A DNA stretch of 64,000 nt from Sulfurimonas sp. SAG-AH-194-I05. Its GTDB lineage: Bacteria > Campylobacterota > Campylobacteria > Campylobacterales > Sulfurimonadaceae. The DNA is taken from NCBI RefSeq assembly GCF_029215955.1, contig NZ_JAEMVA010000007.1, positions 1 to 64,000 on the forward strand. The letters are read 5' to 3'. The position numbers and the translations under genes are program-made. How positions within the stretch are numbered: the stretch's first letter is position 1; the number at the start of each line of letters is the position of its first letter. Below the pieces are notes generated by a model. That model did not search any database. It had not been told where the DNA came from and saw nothing but the letters and a program-made list of their open reading frames with translations. Below are positions 3,810-42,323 of this stretch, piece by piece.

Positions 3810-4692
3810 AATAGGTGTAATTGGAGCGGGAAAATGGGGTACAGCTTTAGCTTTTGCTCTCAGTGAAAAGAACGATGTTGTACTAAGTTCAAGAACGCCA
3901 CGTAAACTTGATAATTTTGTTTCAATGAAGGAAATCCTTACATGTGAGTATTTAGTAATAACTGTGCCTGCACAGCAAGTTTCACTTTGGTTAGAAGAAA
4001 ACTTTGTATTTAGTGGACAAAAAATTCTTGTTGCATCGAAAGGAATAGAAGCTTCAAGTGGTAAGTTTTTAAATGAGATTTATGAAATGCATATTCCACA
4101 TGCTAACATTGCTTTTCTCTCAGGACCATCTTTTGCACATGAGGTACTGGAGTCTCTTCCCACAGCACTTGTAGTTAACTCTGAAAATGAGGAATTAAGT
4201 GCTACTTTTGCATCTTTTTTTCCTTCATTTATAAAAGCATATACTTCCACTGATGTTATGGGTGCTGAAGTCTCAGGGGCATATAAAAACGTCATAGCTA
4301 TAGCTGCTGGTATTTGTGAAGGTTTAGGTCTCGGAAAAAATGCAGCAGCCTCCTTGATTTCTCGTGGTTTAGTGGAGATGCAAAGATTTGGAAATGAGTA
4401 CGGTGCTAAAGAAGAAAGCTTTATCGGTTTAAGTGGAGCAGGAGACTTGTTTTTAACTGCATCATCTGAAAAGTCACGTAACTTTCGTGTAGGTTTAGGT
4501 CTTGCATGTGGGAAATCACAAGAAGAGATACTTAATGACTTAGGTGAAGTAGCAGAGGGTATAGGTACTTCGTATGCACTGTTTGAAATAGCAAAGAAAA
4601 AAGGTTTGTATTTACCAATAGCGAATGAAGTTTATGCAACATTAGAGGGTAAAAACCCGCAAGAATCTCTTAGAGATTTACTTTCAAACTAA
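3802..4692 (+). CDS. gpsA: glycerol-3-phosphate dehydrogenase [NAD(P)+]
   Basis: GpsA reduces dihydroxyacetone phosphate to sn-glycerol 3-phosphate for phospholipid synthesis in the cytoplasm. The 296-residue length is slightly short for the family. It has the dinucleotide motif GAGKWG (8-13), the family motif SGPSFAHEV (107-115) and the catalytic lysine in GAYKNVIA (K162). The C-terminal half contains the conserved GLGKNAAASLISRG and GLSGAGDLFLT stretches. The gene overlaps the preceding RCK gene by 8 bases, so translational coupling is likely although the functions are unrelated. Confidence 0.96.
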   Translation: MTKIGVIGAGKWGTALAFALSEKNDVVLSSRTPRKLDNFVSMKEILTCEYLVITVPAQQVSLWLEENFVFSGQKILVASKGIEASSGKFLNEIYEMHIPHANIAFLSGPSFAHEVLESLPTALVVNSENEELSATFASFFPSFIKAYTSTDVMGAEVSGAYKNVIAIAAGICEGLGLGKNAAASLISRGLVEMQRFGNEYGAKEESFIGLSGAGDLFLTASSEKSRNFRVGLGLACGKSQEEILNDLGEVAEGIGTSYALFEIAKKKGLYLPIANEVYATLEGKNPQESLRDLLSN

Positions 4693-22208: not shown

Positions 22209-23093
22209 TTAAGCTTTTACTTCTTCTTCAAAAAGAGCATCAAGTAGACCATCAACAAATTCATATTTATCAAATACGACTAAGTCCTCAGGTTGTTCTC
22301 CTGTACCAATATATAAAATTGGAAGTTCAAGTTCATAGGCAATACTAAAAATACTTCCACCTTTTGCCGTTCCATCGAGTTTTGTAATTATAATGCCATC
22401 AATACCTATCATTTCATGAAATGCTTTAGCTTGAGCAATTGCAGAGTTTCCTTGTGTACCATCAAGGATTAAAACAGTTCTATGCGGTGCACCATTATGT
22501 GCTTTTTCACATATTTTATTTATTTTAATAAGTTCATTGGCAAGGTTTTTTTGTGTGTGAAGTCTTCCGGCTGTATCTATTATTACATTATCAAAATCTT
22601 TAGCTTTTGCTGAATCTATAGTATCATAAGCAACAGCTGAACTGTCATGTCCTTGTTTTGAAGATACGATAGGAATATCGAGTCTTTGAGACCATAAAGT
22701 AAGTTGCTCTATTGCAGCTGCACGAAAAGTATCACCAGCCCCTAAAATTACTTTTTTACCATCATTCTTATATTTTTGAGCTAATTTAGAAATAGTAGTA
22801 GTTTTACCAGCCCCATTAACTCCAACAATAAGCTCAACAAAAGGAGCTGTAAATTCGGGTTCTTTATAAGTAGTATAAGCAAGCGTCGCTAAAAGTTTTG
22901 AACGTAAAATTTCACGTGTTATTTTATCTTGGTATGTTTGATCTATAATTATTTCAACTAGATCGTATTCTACATCTGCTTCAAGTAAAATATCCTCAAG
23001 TTCATCTTTTGTAAAATACTTTTTTTTCTTAGGTGCAACGGTTTTTATTGCTTCAACAGTTTTACTAAGAGATTTTTTTATAAATCCAAACAT
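22209..23093 (-). CDS. ftsY: signal recognition particle receptor FtsY
   Basis: FtsY is the SRP GTPase receptor that docks ribosome-nascent chain complexes at the membrane. The 294-residue protein lacks the long acidic A domain of E. coli FtsY, as is common in this phylum. It has the N domain helices, G1 GVNGAGKTT (91-99), [15 protein letters not shown], and the closing loop [13 protein letters not shown]. Its start lies 4 bases after the TlpA-like lipoprotein stop on the same strand. Confidence 0.97.
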
Positions 23094-23097
23094 ATTA

Positions 23098-23673
23098 TTA
23101 TTTTCCTAATGCTACTTTAATATCACTTGCAACAAATTCTTCTTGAACTTCGCCTACATAATGATTAAGAAGCTTACCATCTTTATATAATGCCATGATA
23201 GGGATGGGGAATCTATCACCAAGTTCTAAAGCATCTGCAATTTCGTTTACAAGAGGTCTATTGTCTTTAGAATTCACAATACTATATGCAGCATTATTTT
23301 CTTTTTTAAATTGTAAGAGTTTATCATTTGAAATACCATCTTCTATAGTAATACCAATGATGATTAAATCATCTTTAAACTTTTCTTGTAAAGATGTTAA
23401 ATGCGTTGCACTCGCTTTACAAGGGGGACACCATGTTGCAAAAATGTCAAATATTACTACTTTACCTTCTGCATTTTCAAGAAGGAATCCACCATTTTCT
23501 TTTGTCACAATAAATTGCTTGTTATCAGTTGATGTAAGGATATATTGGTTTGTTGTCATAACTGCATTCGCTTTTGCTGTTTCTTTATCTGTTTGTTTCT
23601 TTGTATCACTAGAACATCCTATCATAAGTGCTGAGAGAAGAAAAAGGGAAGTGAATATTGTTTTGTTAATCAT
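23098..23673 (-). CDS. TlpA-like thioredoxin-family lipoprotein
   Basis: This 191-residue lipoprotein has a signal peptide and lipobox (LMIGC, lipidated Cys20). A linker follows, then a thioredoxin fold of the TlpA/ResA type with the redox motif WCPPC (C82, C85) and a cis-proline near IPIMALY. Such proteins reduce periplasmic disulfides, often for cytochrome c maturation. It is cotranscribed with ftsY, with a 4-base gap. A minus-strand TATAAT at 23721-23716 is the likely promoter. Confidence 0.88.
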
Positions 23674-23702
23674 TGAAAATACCTTTGTTTTGTTTTTTAG
23701 AG

Positions 23703-23721
23703 TAAAATGTTTAAAATTATA
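23703..23721. promoter_or_regulatory. divergent promoters of the TlpA-like gene and 5-FCL
   Basis: On the plus strand TAAAAT at 23703-23708 points to the 5-FCL gene (start 23737). On the minus strand TATAAT at 23721-23716 points to the TlpA-like gene (start 23673). The two boxes are interleaved, so the promoters probably compete for polymerase. Confidence 0.4.
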
Positions 23722-23736
23722 TCTAAAGAGATTTAT

Positions 23737-24285
23737 ATGACTCTTACAAAAGCTGAATTTAGAAAAGAATGTTTACAAAAACTAGATAAACTACCAAGTG
23801 CTAACAAATTATATAAAGATTATTTGTTAAACAAAAAGTTACTTAGTGAATTAAAAAGATTAAAAAAGAAGTCAATTCTATTTTATATGCCGTTTGGGTT
23901 TGAAATAAATATAAAACCCATTCTTATGAATATGAGAAGAAAAACTAATGTTTATATTCCATTTATGGAAGGTCAAAGTTTTAAAATGGTACCATTTAGA
24001 CTACCGCTAAAGAAGAAGAGATTTGGAATATATGAAGCGGGAAATACACTTAAAAATATAAATAAAATTGATATAGTAATAGTTCCTATTCTTGGAGTAG
24101 ATATAAATTTACAAAGAATAGGATTTGGAAAAGGGATGTATGACCGTTTTTTTTCACGTTTAAAAAAGAAACCGTATACTATTTTTGTGCAACAAGAACT
24201 TTGTTATACAAAAGAAAAAGTTTGTGATGCATACGACATAGCATGTGACGTATTATTAACACCAACGAAAACAATAAGAAAATAA
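23737..24285 (+). CDS. 5-formyltetrahydrofolate cyclo-ligase family protein
   Basis: The enzyme converts 5-formyl-THF to 5,10-methenyl-THF using ATP. From ATG 23737 it has 182 residues (MTLTKAEFRKECLQKL). An in-frame ATG at 23707 lies within the promoter region, and an AAAGAG site fits the later start. The C-terminal motif VPILGVDINLQRIGFGKGMYDRF is the family's substrate and Mg-ATP signature (GxGxGxYDR, here GFGKGMYDR). It lies 12 bases before rny and is probably cotranscribed. Confidence 0.9.
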   Translation: MTLTKAEFRKECLQKLDKLPSANKLYKDYLLNKKLLSELKRLKKKSILFYMPFGFEINIKPILMNMRRKTNVYIPFMEGQSFKMVPFRLPLKKKRFGIYEAGNTLKNINKIDIVIVPILGVDINLQRIGFGKGMYDRFFSRLKKKPYTIFVQQELCYTKEKVCDAYDIACDVLLTPTKTIRK

Positions 24286-26823: not shown

Positions 26824-27711
26824 ATGGACTTAAACAAATTACGAACAGAACGTGAAAAATGGATGACATGGAAAAATATTCTTCCATTAAGAGAAGTTTT
26901 AAGCACTTTAAGAAAAGGTGACTGGCATGTGGATATTGGAGATGTTATTACCATACATGGGGACTATGAAGGTATAAAAGAAAGTGCAAAGCTTCTTATG
27001 CCTTGGAGAAAGGGTCCATTTAAACTATTTGATACATTTATAGATACAGAATGGCAAAGTAATATAAAATATAACTTATTACGACCACATTTTAATTTAA
27101 AAGATAAAAGAGTTGCCGATATAGGGTGTAACAATGGTTACTATTTGTTTCGTATGCAAGAAGATGCTCCAAAGTCACTCGTAGGATTCGATCCTTCGCC
27201 ACTTTATAAAACACAGTTTGATTTTATAAATCACTTTGTCAAAAGTGACATAGTTTATGAGCTCTTAGGTGTTGAGCATGTGGAATTTTATGAAGAAAAA
27301 TTCGATATAATTTTTTGTTTAGGTGTTTTATACCATAGAAGTGATCCTGTTGCAATGCTTAAACAACTTTATAAAGGGCTTGATAAAAAGGGTGAAGTGA
27401 TTCTTGATACTTTTTATATACAAGGCGAGGGGGAGATGTGTTTATGTCCCGAGTCCTCGTATTCTAAAATACCAAATATTTATTTTGTTCCTACTATAGG
27501 GGCATTAAAAAACTGGTGTTTACGAGCAGGATTTTCTAGTTTTGAAGTTTTAGAAACTTCTGTGACACAAGCTAATGAGCAAAGAAAAACAGAGTGGATA
27601 GAAGGGCAGTCGTTAGAAGACTTTTTAGATCCAGAAGATACAACCAAGACAGTAGAAGGCTATCCAGCTCCAGCAAGAGTATATGTACGATTAATAAAGG
27701 ACAAAAAATGA
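26824..27711 (+). CDS. cmoB: tRNA U34 carboxymethyltransferase
   Basis: CmoB uses carboxy-SAM to form cmo5U at tRNA position 34. The 295-residue protein has the family's N-terminal region with [13 protein letters not shown] and [16 protein letters not shown]-fold [15 protein letters not shown] follows (from about residue 97), then the [16 protein letters not shown] segment. The residues around WRKGPF and GVLYHR are diagnostic against other methyltransferases. CmoA, which makes carboxy-SAM, is not in the window. The next gene starts with an ATGA overlap. Confidence 0.95.
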
Positions 27712-28205
27712 CAGAAGAGATACCAGACGAAGAGTTAGAATTAGAAGATTATATAAATGATGAAGAGCCTACTCTTATTCAAACACATGAAAAAGTGAAT
27801 TCAGAACTTAATGGTGAAATTATTACTTTAGAAAAAGGTTATGTTGAACTTCGTCTGACAACAACTCCTGAAATGATCGCTGATAGTATTGGTCTTATTC
27901 ATGGAGGTTTTATTTTTTGTGCTGCGGATTATGCGGCTATGGTTGCTGTAAATGAAAAAAATGTTGTTTTAGTTGCGAGTGATTGTCAGTTTCTCTCTCC
28001 TGTAAAATTTCATGATGAGGTAAACTTTGTGGCAAGAGCTCGTCAGTTAGAAGGTAAAAAGCGAAATGTTCATGTAGTAGGTCATGTTCATGATATTAAA
28101 GTTTTTGAGGGTGAATTTAAGACAGTCATTACAGAAAGACATGTCTTAAAATTAAAGCTCATTGATGGTGATTCCAAACAACATGGAGAGAGTGGAATTA
28201 TTTAA
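27708..28205 (+). CDS. hot-dog-fold thioesterase-like protein
   Basis: This 165-residue protein has a PaaI/YiiD-like hot-dog domain: a [21 protein letters not shown] helix preceded by the [19 protein letters not shown] strands. A long acidic N-terminal extension ([19 protein letters not shown]) is unusual. It starts with ATGA overlapping the cmoB stop, so translation is coupled. Such proteins hydrolyse acyl-CoAs; the substrate is unknown. Its end overlaps the convergent methyltransferase by 8 bases. Confidence 0.85.
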
Positions 28206-29710: not shown

Positions 29711-29748
29711 CTTTTTAATATAAATTACTTAAAGAAGATGAAGTCCAT

Positions 29749-30564
29749 ATGCAATTTTTTACGCACCTAGAAGCTATTTTAAAAGAAAAGATACCACATT
29801 GTAAGATACAAATGTTTCAGTATTTTTATACAAAATATAAAAAAGGGAATGTTTTATTTGAAGATACGTATAATGCATTACTATTTGAGAATCCTTCTTA
29901 TATTTCCACATGTACAGTAGTACCACCACAAGACGTACCAAAAAGAAGTAACTTAACTGCAAAAGAGGGACAAATAGTCCTCGTTCATGCTATTGCGCAT
30001 ATAGAATACTCAGCTATTGATCTAGCACTTGATGGTGCGTATAGGTTTTCCCACATGCCAAAGAAGTATTATGATGATTGGCTAGATGTAGCAAATGATG
30101 AAATACGTCATTTTCTTATGTTAGAAGAACTCTTGCATGAGCTAGGTTCAAGTTATGGAGCAGTGAATGTACATAATGCCTTGTTTGAAGCAAGTCAAAG
30201 AACCCAAACCTTACTTGAGCGTATGGCAGTCGTTCCGAGGTACTTAGAAGCAAATGGACTTGATGCAACACCTTTGATTTTAAAAAAACTTCACAAGCTT
30301 CCAAAAAGTGAAATGATAGAAAAAATTATAAACGTCCTAAGCATTATTTTAGAAGAAGAAGTAGAGCATGTGAAAAAAGGCGATGTTTGGTTCACTTACG
30401 CATGTGAGAAAGAGGGTGTATCAAGCGAAATATACTTTGAAATCATAAAGAAGTACTATCCACAAGGGTTTTTAAGAGCTAAAAATATTAATATAGAAGC
30501 TAGAAAAGAAGCAGGGTTCTCTTGTAGTGAATTAAAGCACATGGCACATAAAGAAGTTTGTTAA
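29749..30564 (+). CDS. DUF455-family ferritin-like protein
   Basis: This 271-residue cytoplasmic protein resembles DUF455, a ferritin-like, possibly diiron helical family. Candidate metal ligands are E and H in the AIAHIEYSAID and DEIRHFLMLEELL helices (about 84-131). A third helix has ILEEEVEHVKKGD near 200. Related proteins are annotated as rhamnosyltransferase-like or MiaE-like without firm basis, so no enzyme activity is assigned. It has its own promoter and is followed by nadE after 52 bases. Confidence 0.8.
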   Translation: MQFFTHLEAILKEKIPHCKIQMFQYFYTKYKKGNVLFEDTYNALLFENPSYISTCTVVPPQDVPKRSNLTAKEGQIVLVHAIAHIEYSAIDLALDGAYRFSHMPKKYYDDWLDVANDEIRHFLMLEELLHELGSSYGAVNVHNALFEASQRTQTLLERMAVVPRYLEANGLDATPLILKKLHKLPKSEMIEKIINVLSIILEEEVEHVKKGDVWFTYACEKEGVSSEIYFEIIKKYYPQGFLRAKNINIEARKEAGFSCSELKHMAHKEVC

Positions 30565-31432: not shown

Positions 31433-32560
31433 ATGAAAACTAAAATACCATTTAGTAAATTTATTAGTGGAAGAGAAGCACACTCAAATGTAAGCGATGC
31501 TTTAGATGGGGAAGATGTTAATCAAGTAGGACAACTTGAAGATGAATTTTCTTCATATATTGGAGTTGAATACGCAATAGCTACTTCACATGGTACAGAT
31601 GCACTGCACTTAGCAATGTTGGCTTTTGACCTCAAGCGTGGTGATAAAGTAGTATGTTCTGTAAATGCGCATCCTAATGTACCAGAAGTTGTTCGTCATT
31701 TTGATGCTGAACCTGTATTTATTGACATTGATGCAGATACGTACAACATAAATCTTGATGCACTCGAAAATTACCTAGAAGATAATCAGTCTAAAAAATT
31801 AAAAGCTGTAATTATTACACATATAGCTGGTGATACTATTGATTTACAAAGACTTTATTCAATGGCTAAAATTTATGATGTAAAAATTGTAGAAAATGCA
31901 AATGATTCATTTGGTGCTACATATAAAGGTGAAAAAATAGGCTCAACGGGTGCTGATGTAACCTGTTTTGATTTTTCACCACATTTAAAGAAAAATATTT
32001 GTAATGGTGGTATGCTTGTTACAAATGATGAAGAAATTATGCAAAGAGCGAAACTTCTTCGTAATCATGGAATAACAAGAGATGAAGATGCTTTAGAATA
32101 TATTTATGAAGTTATTGATATTGGTAATGATTATACGATGAGTGAATTAAATGCAGCCTATATTCGTGCGCAGATAATGGAACAAGATGCCAATATTACG
32201 AGACATCAAGAGATAGCAGAAATGTATACAAAAGCGCTTGCATCTGTTGAACATGTACGTGTACCAAGGAGCGAAAACGAAGAACATCCTTTTTCTCTTT
32301 ATATAGTGAAAATTGATAAAAATCGTGATTCTTTTGCTGTGGAGCTTAAAAAAGAGGGTATTGAGACAGGTCTACATTATATTCCTTTACATTTTTTAAC
32401 ATACTATAAATCAAAATATTCTTTACGAATAAATGATTTTCCTGTAGCTCTTCGAACATACCAACAAGTTTTATCTCTTCCAATGTACACAGGTATGACA
32501 GACAAAGAAGTTAAATTTGTATGTGATAAAATCAAAAAAATAGCATCTTCAAGAGTGTAA
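31433..32560 (+). CDS. DegT/DnrJ/EryC1/StrS-family aminotransferase
   Basis: This 375-residue PLP enzyme has ATSHGTDALHLAMLAFDLKRGD, typical of sugar aminotransferases of the PglE/WecE type. Another conserved stretch is DFSPHLKKNICNGGMLV, where the PLP lysine is in LKKNI. The HIAGDTIDL and NANDSFGATYKGEKIGSTG motifs are also present. Such enzymes transaminate nucleotide-sugars for surface glycans. Neighbouring lpxK suggests an LPS role, but no other glycan gene is nearby. Confidence 0.9.
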   Translation: MKTKIPFSKFISGREAHSNVSDALDGEDVNQVGQLEDEFSSYIGVEYAIATSHGTDALHLAMLAFDLKRGDKVVCSVNAHPNVPEVVRHFDAEPVFIDIDADTYNINLDALENYLEDNQSKKLKAVIITHIAGDTIDLQRLYSMAKIYDVKIVENANDSFGATYKGEKIGSTGADVTCFDFSPHLKKNICNGGMLVTNDEEIMQRAKLLRNHGITRDEDALEYIYEVIDIGNDYTMSELNAAYIRAQIMEQDANITRHQEIAEMYTKALASVEHVRVPRSENEEHPFSLYIVKIDKNRDSFAVELKKEGIETGLHYIPLHFLTYYKSKYSLRINDFPVALRTYQQVLSLPMYTGMTDKEVKFVCDKIKKIASSRV

Positions 32561-32561
32561 A

Positions 32562-33479
32562 ATAATCTCTTTCAAATCTTTTGTATTTTGGGTTGAAGAA
32601 TACTTCTACAACCCAAATATTTTTCAAAAAACTCTTTCTTTTTTTCTCGTACCACTTTCGTTTCTTTATTGCTTCATTATGTGGCTTCGTTATAAAAGTA
32701 AAACACCCTATGACTTTTCTATTCCCATTATAAGTATAGGAAACCTTAGTGTTGGTGGGAGTGGCAAAACACCACTTACGAGTGCCTTAGCTTTAAGATA
32801 TGAAGATGTAGCAATTATTTTACGTGGTTATGGGAGAGAGAGTAGGGGTCTTTATATTGTTAAAAATAAAGATGCAATTTTATGTGATGTTAAAGTAAGT
32901 GGTGATGAGGCGATGATTTATGCGCATAAAGTACCACATTCTCTTGTTATAGTTAGTGAAGATAGAACAAAAGGTATAGAAAAAGCAAAAGAACTAGGTG
33001 CTAAAATAATCTTTTTAGATGATGCTTACTCTAAACATGGAATTAAAAAATTAGATTTTTTAATTGATGTGACTGTGGCTAATAAACGCTGTTTTCCATC
33101 GGGTGCTTTTAGAGAAAGACTTTGGAATTCTAAAGAAGCATATGTACTCCAAGAAGGAAGTGACTTTAAAAGAGTAGTAGAGCTTAAAGACAAATATGAT
33201 AAAATGTCACTTGTTACAGCTATTGCTCGACCACAGAGGTTAGATAAGTTTTTACCCTCAGTTGTGAGTAAACATTATTTTGAAGATCATTATTCCTTTA
33301 AAAAAAGTGAATTAGAAGATATTCTTAGTAATGATGGCTCAGATTCACTTTTAGTAACGTATAAAGATTTTGTAAAAGTGCAATCTTTTGGGCTTCCATT
33401 ATCGCTACTTGATTTACATGTGGAAGTTGATGAAAAAGTATATGAAATAATAGGAAATTATATTGCAAAAGAAAATTGA
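32562..33479 (+). CDS. lpxK: tetraacyldisaccharide 4'-kinase with a non-standard start
   Basis: LpxK phosphorylates the lipid A disaccharide. The family's Walker region is IIISIGNLSVGGSGKTPL-like. The first ATG (32679) gives only 266 residues and cuts off the N-terminal membrane helix. In-frame codons upstream read FVFWVEEYFYNPNIFQK then LSFFLVPLSFLYCFIMW, which matches the known LpxK N-terminus. That frame is open back to 32544 but contains no ATG, GTG or TTG. An AAGAG site (32551-32555) is well placed for the ATA at 32562 or the ATC at 32565. I therefore list 32562; the exact start is uncertain, and a sequencing error is the alternative. Confidence 0.8.
   Translation: MISFKSFVFWVEEYFYNPNIFQKTLSFFLVPLSFLYCFIMWLRYKSKTPYDFSIPIISIGNLSVGGSGKTPLTSALALRYEDVAIILRGYGRESRGLYIVKNKDAILCDVKVSGDEAMIYAHKVPHSLVIVSEDRTKGIEKAKELGAKIIFLDDAYSKHGIKKLDFLIDVTVANKRCFPSGAFRERLWNSKEAYVLQEGSDFKRVVELKDKYDKMSLVTAIARPQRLDKFLPSVVSKHYFEDHYSFKKSELEDILSNDGSDSLLVTYKDFVKVQSFGLPLSLLDLHVEVDEKVYEIIGNYIAKEN
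32587..32617 (+). other. strong hairpin overlapping the lpxK N-terminal codons
   Basis: Nine-base arms TTTGGGTTG (32587-32595) and CAACCCAAA (32609-32617) enclose a second 4-bp stem (AGAA at 32597-32600, TTCT at 32604-32607) around a TAC loop, with one A:A mismatch. It is followed by TATTTTTC, which makes it resemble an intrinsic terminator after the DegT gene. However, it also encodes conserved LpxK residues. It may act as an attenuator or translational brake. Confidence 0.55.
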
Positions 33480-34314: not shown

Positions 34315-34339
34315 AATGAGTTATAATGATAAAGAAATT

Positions 34340-34759
34340 ATGAAAAAATCTTTATTGAAAATTTTAGTTCTATGCTTCTTTTTATTTACTGCTCTTGGAG
34401 CAAATGAATATAAAAGTATAGATACAATTGAATTAAAAAAAGATGAGCATAAAAAAATACTTGTTACATATGGAAAAATTGCAAAACTTTTTAAGTTTAG
34501 ATGGACATTATATGTAAATAATGGCTTAGTAATTTTACGTTCCTATGATAGAATAGTGGCTCAAAACATGCTTTATTTAAGACATAAAAATAGAAGTTTC
34601 CGTGTCGATTTAATGCCAAAGGGTTTAGGTTCTATAAAAGTTCCTTATTTATTGGTAAAGTTTATAGAGTTTAATTATAAAACAAATAAAGCGACATTCA
34701 AAATGTACTTATCTGATGACACAGGTGTAGTAACTTTAGAATATTTAAAAGAGAAGTAA
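34340..34759 (+). CDS. uncharacterised exported protein
   Basis: This 139-residue protein has a clear signal peptide when started at ATG 34340 (MKKSLLKILVLCFFLFTALGANEY). The frame is also open from ATG 34316, but that one lacks a ribosome binding site. After cleavage it is a small basic periplasmic protein rich in predicted strands (FRWTLYVNNGLVILRSYDRI, LVKFIEFNYKTNKATFKMYL). I do not recognise a family. It sits between argB and the polyprenyl synthase with short spacers. Confidence 0.7.
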   Translation: MKKSLLKILVLCFFLFTALGANEYKSIDTIELKKDEHKKILVTYGKIAKLFKFRWTLYVNNGLVILRSYDRIVAQNMLYLRHKNRSFRVDLMPKGLGSIKVPYLLVKFIEFNYKTNKATFKMYLSDDTGVVTLEYLKEK

Positions 34760-40476: not shown

Positions 40477-40505
40477 TGTAAAAGAAATTGAATTAAAGAT
40501 AAAAA

Positions 40506-42323
40506 ATGAAAAAAACGATAGAACTTTTAAAAAATAACAATGAATTAATAACTATTGAAGATGAACTCGATATTTATCTTGAAATTTCGCATATTGCATA
40601 TGCAGAAGTGAAAAAAAGTCATGGAGGCAAAGCCCTTCTTTTTACAAATGTAGTAGATAAAAAAAATAATAAAAAATTTGAAGAACCTGTTCTTATGAAT
40701 GTATTTGGTTCTTATAGACGTTGTGAACTCCTTTTTGGTCGTACTATTGAGTCTATTGCAGATGAAATTACGTCACTTTTACATATGAAGCCTCCAACTG
40801 GAATAGCCGATAAAATATCGATGGCATCTCAAATGTTTGCACTTAAAAATGTTTTTCCAAAGAGAGTTAAAGGTAAGGCTCAATGTCAAGAAGTTCAGTT
40901 TCTCCATGATGCTATTGACCTTACTTCATTACCTGTTTTAACTACATGGGAACAAGATGGTGGTCCTTTTATTACAATGGGACAAGTATATACACAATCA
41001 CTTGATGGCGATATGGTTAATCTTGGAATGTATAGACTTCAAGTGTATGATAAAAACCATTTAGGAATGCATTGGCAAATACATAAAGATTCTTCTCACT
41101 TTTTCGATCAGTACCAAAAAGCGGGTAAAAAAATGCCTGTGAGTATTGCTATTGGTGGTAATCCCCTTTATACATGGTGCGCTACAGCTCCTCTACCTTA
41201 TGGTGTAAATGAACTTTTAATGTATGGTCTTATTACAAAAACACCAGCAAAAATCATTAAGTCGTTAACGACACCTCTTTATATTCCAACAGATGTTGAT
41301 TATGTTATAGAGGGTTGGGTAGATACAAATGAATTAAAAACAGAGGGTCCTTTTGGGGATCATACTGGATACTATACTTTAGAAGAACCTTATCCTGTGA
41401 TGGAAGTAAGTGCCATTACAATGAAAGAAGAGAAGGTATTTTTAGCAACAGTAGTAGGAAAACCACCTTTGGAAGATAAGTATATGGGTTGGGCGACGGG
41501 AAAAATATTTTTCCCTCTTTTAAAAACAACCGCTCCAGATTTACTCGATTACCACATGCCAGAGAATGCAGGTTTTCATAATCTCATTATTGGAAAGATG
41601 AAAACTTTATATAAAGGACATGCAAAACAGTTTATGCATGCTTTTTGGGGTGTAGGACAGATGAGCTTTGTTAAACACGCAATTTTTGTTGATGAAAATG
41701 CTCCTAAGTTAGATAACTACCATGCTTTAGCTACGTATATTTTAAATAGATTTACACCTAAAAGTATGTTTATAACAGAGGGAATTTTAGATGCACTTGA
41801 TCATTCTTCTCCTGAAACATTAGTCGGTGGAAAATTAGGTATTGATGCAACAGCGGCACATGTTATCGATGCTCCTCAATATATAGATGATGATTTACTT
41901 TTAAAAAAAGTCAAAGCTATAATACCAAGTGTTGTAGATTTACGCCAATACATGACACGAACAAAAAATCCAATTACAGTTATTTCATTAGTTAAAACAC
42001 AAACATGTAAAAACCATTTTCAAATTCTTGAAGCACTTAGTGTTTATTTAAGAGTAGTTGTTTTTATAGATTTTGAAAAAAATGATATTGACAATCCTTA
42101 TATGTTAGTTTGGAGAGTTACAAATAATATTGATGCCCAAAGAGATATTTTTATAAATAATCTGATGGTCTGTATTGACGGTACAAATAAAAATAAACTA
42201 GATAACTACGATAGAGAATGGCCAGATGATGTTACGTGTACCCCTCGTGTTATTGCGTCATTAAAACAAAGAGGTATCTGGAACTTTGATGATACTCTTT
42301 ATAAAAAGTATCAACTTTCATAA
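40506..42323 (+). CDS. UbiD-family decarboxylase, probably MqnL-type
   Basis: This 605-residue prFMN-dependent decarboxylase is longer than E. coli UbiD (~497). It has the prFMN-binding NLGMYRLQVYDKNHLGMHWQ and EGPFGDHTGYYTLEEPYPV signatures, including the Glu and Arg region used in catalysis. In Campylobacterota ubiquinone is absent and menaquinone is made by the futalosine pathway, in which a UbiD homologue (MqnL) decarboxylates the naphthoate. The gene also sits near a polyprenyl synthase. It is therefore more likely MqnL than UbiD. Confidence 0.88.
   Translation: MKKTIELLKNNNELITIEDELDIYLEISHIAYAEVKKSHGGKALLFTNVVDKKNNKKFEEPVLMNVFGSYRRCELLFGRTIESIADEITSLLHMKPPTGIADKISMASQMFALKNVFPKRVKGKAQCQEVQFLHDAIDLTSLPVLTTWEQDGGPFITMGQVYTQSLDGDMVNLGMYRLQVYDKNHLGMHWQIHKDSSHFFDQYQKAGKKMPVSIAIGGNPLYTWCATAPLPYGVNELLMYGLITKTPAKIIKSLTTPLYIPTDVDYVIEGWVDTNELKTEGPFGDHTGYYTLEEPYPVMEVSAITMKEEKVFLATVVGKPPLEDKYMGWATGKIFFPLLKTTAPDLLDYHMPENAGFHNLIIGKMKTLYKGHAKQFMHAFWGVGQMSFVKHAIFVDENAPKLDNYHALATYILNRFTPKSMFITEGILDALDHSSPETLVGGKLGIDATAAHVIDAPQYIDDDLLLKKVKAIIPSVVDLRQYMTRTKNPITVISLVKTQTCKNHFQILEALSVYLRVVVFIDFEKNDIDNPYMLVWRVTNNIDAQRDIFINNLMVCIDGTNKNKLDNYDREWPDDVTCTPRVIASLKQRGIWNFDDTLYKKYQLS

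Follow-up and report, generated by a model that had tools for sequence, protein, structure and literature searches.

A Sulfurimonas lpxK frame without a standard start codon ahead of its conserved N-terminus

Where does translation of a gene begin when its open frame offers none of the usual initiation codons ahead of conserved coding sequence? This question is raised by lpxK in a stretch of 64,000 nucleotides of Sulfurimonas sp. SAG-AH-194-I05 (contig NZ_JAEMVA010000007.1), hereafter the window. The frame (32544-33479, + strand; HLQECKIISFKSFVFWVEEYFYNPN...) runs from stop to stop over 311 codons plus the stop. The initial annotation had claimed that it lacks a standard start upstream, and this is indeed the case: from the upstream in-frame stop to the conserved coding sequence there is no ATG, GTG or TTG, and the first one in the frame is ATG 32679, 45 codons in.

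The lpxK frame and its N-terminus

The frame scored above the cut-offs of three LpxK profiles, PF02606 (148.2 bits, cut-off 27), NF001892 (415.7, cut-off 327) and TIGR00682 (104, cut-off 91.95), with position 3 of the NF001892 model aligned to residue 5 when residues are numbered from ATA 32562. The P-loop GGSGKT (G65 G66 S67 G68 K69 T70) and the Walker B residues D153 and D154, motifs named for LpxK in the available text of a review (PMC6286764), were invariant in 18 aligned rows, and this was the only lpxK match in the genome of the window. Judged by these sequence matches, the predicted product is LpxK, the tetraacyldisaccharide 4'-kinase (lipid A 4'-kinase). Upstream lies a gene for a DegT-type aminotransferase (31433-32560, identified by profile match), which ends with the TAA at 32558-32560 (+), within the span of the open lpxK frame. 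Downstream, an amino-acid-kinase gene, which we take to be argB, overlaps the end of lpxK with its TTG start at 33463.

The sequence upstream of 32679 encodes the conserved N-terminus of LpxK, as the initial annotation had proposed on the strength of the motifs FWVEEYFYNPN and PLSFLYCFI. The stretch FWVEEYFYNPN...YCFI (32586-32678, +) is conserved, and when it was compared with the six nearest relatives we counted 15-17 differences at third codon positions, 3-10 at first and 3-4 at second positions. Against the 15 nearest relatives pS was 0.42-0.73 and pN 0.11-0.22. The pN of the N-terminus was higher than that of the rest of the gene in some pairs (0.22 versus 0.13 for L031) and lower in others (0.11 versus 0.17 for L038), so that the constraint on the N-terminus is real but no stronger than elsewhere in lpxK. 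This constraint reflects the whole branch, and a very recent loss would still be compatible with it. Five N-terminal columns (W10, E12, Y14, Y16 and P18) were invariant in the 18 rows.

In a structure model of the protein (mean pLDDT 82.9; 54-80 in the first five 10-residue blocks), helices were predicted at residues 4-16 and 20-46, so that a product initiated ahead of 32679 would carry a helical segment before the P-loop domain. The solved structure of LpxK, chain 4ehw, is matched from residue 29 of the query onwards, starting at residue 8 of the chain. A start at ATG 32679 (residue 40, inside the second helix) would drop the whole first helix and, of the second, 20 residues out of 27, and the shortening of about 39 residues foreseen for gene callers that accept only ATG, GTG and TTG comes to exactly 39 at this codon. 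From these observations the start of the LpxK protein most probably lies upstream of 32679.

A run of 45 codons that lacks a standard start is unremarkable alone. Two other frames of at least 150 amino acids in the window go further without one; the frames at 4080 and 57833 (-), of 183 and 164 codons, have their first ATG, GTG or TTG after 112 and 69 codons, and they are probably not genes in that frame. In lpxK itself, 51 of 121 sequences (the window included) have no ATG, GTG or TTG between FW and the column of 32679. The oddity in the window is that there is none where the relatives have one.

Start codons in relatives and in control genes

We collected lpxK 5' ends from a search of the genus, in which 125 of 135 genomes gave a match, a search of relatives, a scan of genome contigs (74 loci) and extra regions. 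Anchoring on the conserved Trp of FWVE was possible for 192 of the 197 loci and gave 122 distinct 5' ends, the window included. The five loci left out were one with unresolved bases at the start place (L124), one cut at residue 79 (L129), two distant ones with a different N-terminus (L130 and L197) and one in which the Trp is Leu (L157). A few loci of the contig scan were titled above genus level, so that some of the 122 5' ends, which represent Sulfurimonas and close kin, may lie outside Sulfurimonas. In an order-wide search LpxK was present in 392 of 398 genomes, the starts being tallied for the genus and close kin. One of the distant loci, L197 (G115:C23), is a second LpxK-like frame, 42-43% identical, that stands beside a normal one in a genome of the same genus and could be contamination.

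A standard start lies exactly 7 codons before the Trp (position 32589 in the window) in 118 of the 122 distinct 5' ends, as TTG in 97, GTG in 12 and ATG in 9. One further 5' end (L134/L092) has TTG at -6, an arrangement which shows that a start codon TTG is tolerated there. Another (L167/L107) reads ACG at -7, and we rejected it as a rare-start case since it carries a TTG two codons upstream, at -9. This leaves two of the 122 without any standard start, the window and L161/L131. The latter, with TTA at -7, was also dismissed as a second rare-start case, since its contig, from a MAG, contains Ns and its argB start is damaged as well; an in-frame ATA stands 8 nt after AAGAG in this locus (G081, NORP87 MAG). 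In the window the relatives' start place, -7 and -6 from the Trp, is occupied by TCT TTC (32568-32573, +). A conserved rare lpxK start was sought among the 122 distinct 5' ends and not found.

A tree of 121 protein rows, its bootstrap values not fully settled, placed the window with L031, L033, L061 and L036 (support 99/98). Since all four of these nearest relatives have TTG at -7, the absence of a standard start appears from the sequences to be a change on the branch of the window and not a device common to its nearest kin. The proposal of a rare start stands in so far as no standard codon is available, whereas in the relatives the start is no rare codon but UUG, GUG or AUG at -7. The stretch from the stop to the Trp also differs in length from that of the relatives, whose start place would fall on TTC 32571 if one codon had been deleted. 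By eye, the simplest path would be the loss of one AAA codon together with a change of TTG to TTC, although we are unsure of the exact path. The genomes searched, from which very near records were possibly excluded, included no further member of the species, and the best other lpxK was 78% identical.

The neighbourhood provided a control. We compared 22 frames lying between 22 and 42 kb in the window with homologues in 20 reference stretches. In 21 of them a standard codon is present no more than 9 codons from the place where the homologues most often start, lpxK being the lone exception. The check is weak for at least three of the 21 (22209-23105, 27579-28205 and 40503-42323), whose homologous frames vary much in length. 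Of 345 gene-genome pairs, four had no start close to the commonest position. Three of these concern 23098-23772, where the start is ambiguous among homologues, and one concerns 29719-30564; we take these four as alignment noise. In the reference stretches, all on contigs of at least 164 kb, lpxK had a standard start in 20 of 20.

Among 315 distinct 5' ends of control genes from the same loci, 2 had no standard start close to where one was expected (argB 1/86, nadE 1/57, the aminotransferase gene 0/112, ispA 0/41 and hemA 0/19), as against 2 of 124 for lpxK with the window included, both being raw counts. The 315 exclude the control at 34316-34759, whose N-terminus was unaligned and for which 27 of 33 rows had no start near that of the window, and the gene 29749-30564 contributed no row. 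Both control misses occur in MAGs, one of them on the N-bearing contig that also carries L161/L131. In nadE of L060 (AUK240 MAG) the start reads AAG, an error or a real loss.

These tallies also bear on start strength. ATG was found in 110 of 112 aminotransferase genes (a looser tally, with a standard codon accepted at any of six neighbouring offsets), 55 of 57 nadE, 40 of 41 ispA and 19 of 19 hemA, whereas the 86 distinct argB starts comprised 43 GTG, 27 TTG and 15 ATG. Non-ATG starts are common in lpxK and argB and ATG is near-universal in the other four genes, so that weak starts characterize lpxK and argB in this group of bacteria.

Candidate start codons and competing readings

If the sequence is correct, the most likely start codon is ATA 32562 (32562-32564, +), which begins 1 nt after the upstream stop, with ATC 32565 (32565-32567, +; 4 nt after the stop) as a second candidate. 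A weak Shine-Dalgarno-like site, AAGAG (32551-32555, +), lies within the final codons of the aminotransferase gene. The claim that the two candidates are suitably spaced from it agrees with the gaps of 6 and 9 nt (15 nt for TTC 32571); on the other hand, neither candidate is the relatives' start place, which corresponds to TCT 32568. AAGAG is the site before the start in 59 of 120 relatives; the gap is 5-9 nt in 13 of them, 10-13 nt in 36 and 15-17 nt in 10, and 29 of the 120 have none of the listed motifs. Pairing of the AAGAG region was -3.4 kcal/mol, which equals or beats 84% of relatives; in the window nadE, argB, ispA and the aminotransferase gene pair more strongly and hemA more weakly (all with an assumed 16S tail). 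Some rare-start genes carry a Shine-Dalgarno site that is strong or extended, a trait not needed in every such gene, and the window has none of this kind.

In the 120 relatives the start lies between -4 and +13 nt of the upstream stop in 103, at +24 and +26 once each, and 15 were unscored. Starts at +4 (as for ATC), +7 and +10 (as for TCT and TTC) occur among them, whereas a start at exactly +1 nt, the place of ATA, was found in none of the 105 scorable relatives. The folding energy of the start region was -3.9 for ATA, -6.5 for ATC and -7.0 for both TCT and TTC, the mean of 119 relatives being -9.0 (SD 3.1).

The reading that we favour, while giving it somewhat less than an even chance, is that this is an ordinary Sulfurimonas lpxK which has lost the conserved UUG on its own branch and whose full-length product still arises from translation that begins at a near-cognate codon. 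Initiation would take place at AUA 32562 (most likely) or AUC 32565 (less likely), perhaps aided by the AAGAG site, by the weak structure around the start and by ribosomes coming directly from termination at UAA 32558-32560. The codon used, the coupling to the upstream gene and a low output are all inferred. Nothing points to selection for a rare start, as no nearest relative shares one. The weak AAGAG pairing and the lack of any relative with a start at +1 nt speak against this reading, and one wrong base would explain everything. A more far-reaching form of it, which we consider unlikely, is that lpxK would be translated from AUA or AUC by ribosomes that re-initiate past the upstream stop; lipid A synthesis would in that case be tied to the level of IF3, and the arrangement would extend the tendency of the genus towards a weak UUG. 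The chances given to this and the following readings are our judgement and were not computed.

A wrong consensus base, or a minority allele of a mixed population, is nearly as likely, and the real start would then be standard, for instance at -6 (TTC 32571). The source genome is an unfinished draft, 85% complete and in 110 contigs. The two control misses are in MAGs, one of them sharing an N-bearing contig with L161/L131, the other start-less lpxK, and every lpxK on the long reference contigs has a standard start. A TTG at -6 has its precedent in L134/L092, and the gap it would leave to AAGAG is within the 15-17 nt seen in 10 of the 59 relatives. However, the window contains no N and none of the other compared frames is start-less, and because the start region is set apart from those of relatives by several changes, one of them in length, and not by a single base, it has truly diverged. 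True losses are rare as well, since in the available text of PMC5622118 only 1 of 2,468 ancestral UUG starts in 36 close-genome triplets had become a codon other than AUG, GUG or UUG.

It is very unlikely that the species makes a shortened LpxK from ATG 32679 (32679-32681, +). This codon is the first standard in-frame start, M occupies its column in 114 of 121 sequences, and the shortened protein would still score above the Pfam and NCBIfam cut-offs; the Met is a conserved internal one, however, preceded by 31 constrained codons, and it lies within the predicted helix 20-46, in the region aligning with the beginning of the 4ehw chain. Moreover, Shine-Dalgarno pairing upstream of it is unfavourable (+0.7 kcal/mol), and this makes a start there unlikely. 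The N-terminal amphipathic helix of LpxK is described in the available review text as the likely membrane contact (PMC6286764). Least probable of all is that initiation remains at the ancestral place (TCT 32568 or TTC 32571), or that a +1 frameshift fuses the aminotransferase to LpxK. TTC would be the TTG position after the loss of one AAA codon, with a 15 nt gap that is within the range of relatives, but neither UCU nor UUC serves well as a start codon. Relative to the upstream frame the lpxK frame is +1, and it stays open beyond the upstream stop; yet GUG-UAA-A offers no obvious slip site, and in relatives the upstream stop falls in varied frames with respect to lpxK. The anomaly is confirmed and limited to one genome, as either a real rare start or a wrong base, interesting but not proven.

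Rare starts elsewhere and their meaning for lpxK

Initiation from all 64 codons is reportedly the subject of an earlier study (Hecht, 2017). Among the literature matches listed, which were partial for broad queries, none dealt in its title or abstract with a rare start in lpxK or in Sulfurimonas, nor did a case from the phylum turn up. The closest comparison for the window is Sulfurimonas lpxK with a UUG start, which has the same upstream neighbour and the same N-terminus and differs in its standard start at -7.

In the available text of PMC13009471, AUA is the natural start of S. aureus infC, ccpN and citZ and AUU that of cvfC1. In poor medium, reporters carrying non-canonical starts such as AUA reached about 10% of the output obtained with AUG, and the ccpN start up to 30% in rich medium (PMC13009471). 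The candidate AUA in the window would resemble ccpN, infC and citZ in its codon and in the reduced output expected from it. However, infC, ccpN and cvfC1 have extended Shine-Dalgarno sites, unlike the weak AAGAG of the window, and the rare starts of cvfC1 and ccpN are conserved, whereas here there is no conservation (PMC13009471).

E. coli infC (AUU) and Streptomyces infC (ATC), as described in the accessible part of PMC5472188, have an AUN start and no ATG, GTG or TTG, like the candidate here, and E. coli pcnB (AUU), known to us from a reference title in PMC13009471, does likewise. Streptomyces sigR (GTC) is also a single gene whose rare start was missed by start prediction (PMC5472188). The starts of both infC genes and pcnB come from experiments, and repression by IF3, which represses non-canonical starts, was shown for sigR (PMC5472188), whereas the lpxK of the window is known from sequence alone and its nearest relatives do not share its start. 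According to the available text of PMC2268962, E. coli ribosomes can re-initiate behind an upstream stop, and an excess of IF3 makes this less frequent. The infC gene of the genome of the window (L198, G000:C1) has TTG, GTG and ATG near the beginning of its frame, and a start of the AUU type is not needed there.

In the available text of the review, LpxK is called the final step of the pathway that is absolutely essential to E. coli (PMC6286764). If the rare start is real, an envelope gene that most Gram-negatives need would join the bacterial genes with non-canonical starts, and gene callers limited to ATG, GTG and TTG would shorten its product by those 39 residues. If a base is in error, the case would instead counsel caution about start codons read from draft genomes. 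The UUG start kept in 97 of the 122 lpxK 5' ends is itself a testable sign that weak initiation of this gene may have been selected.
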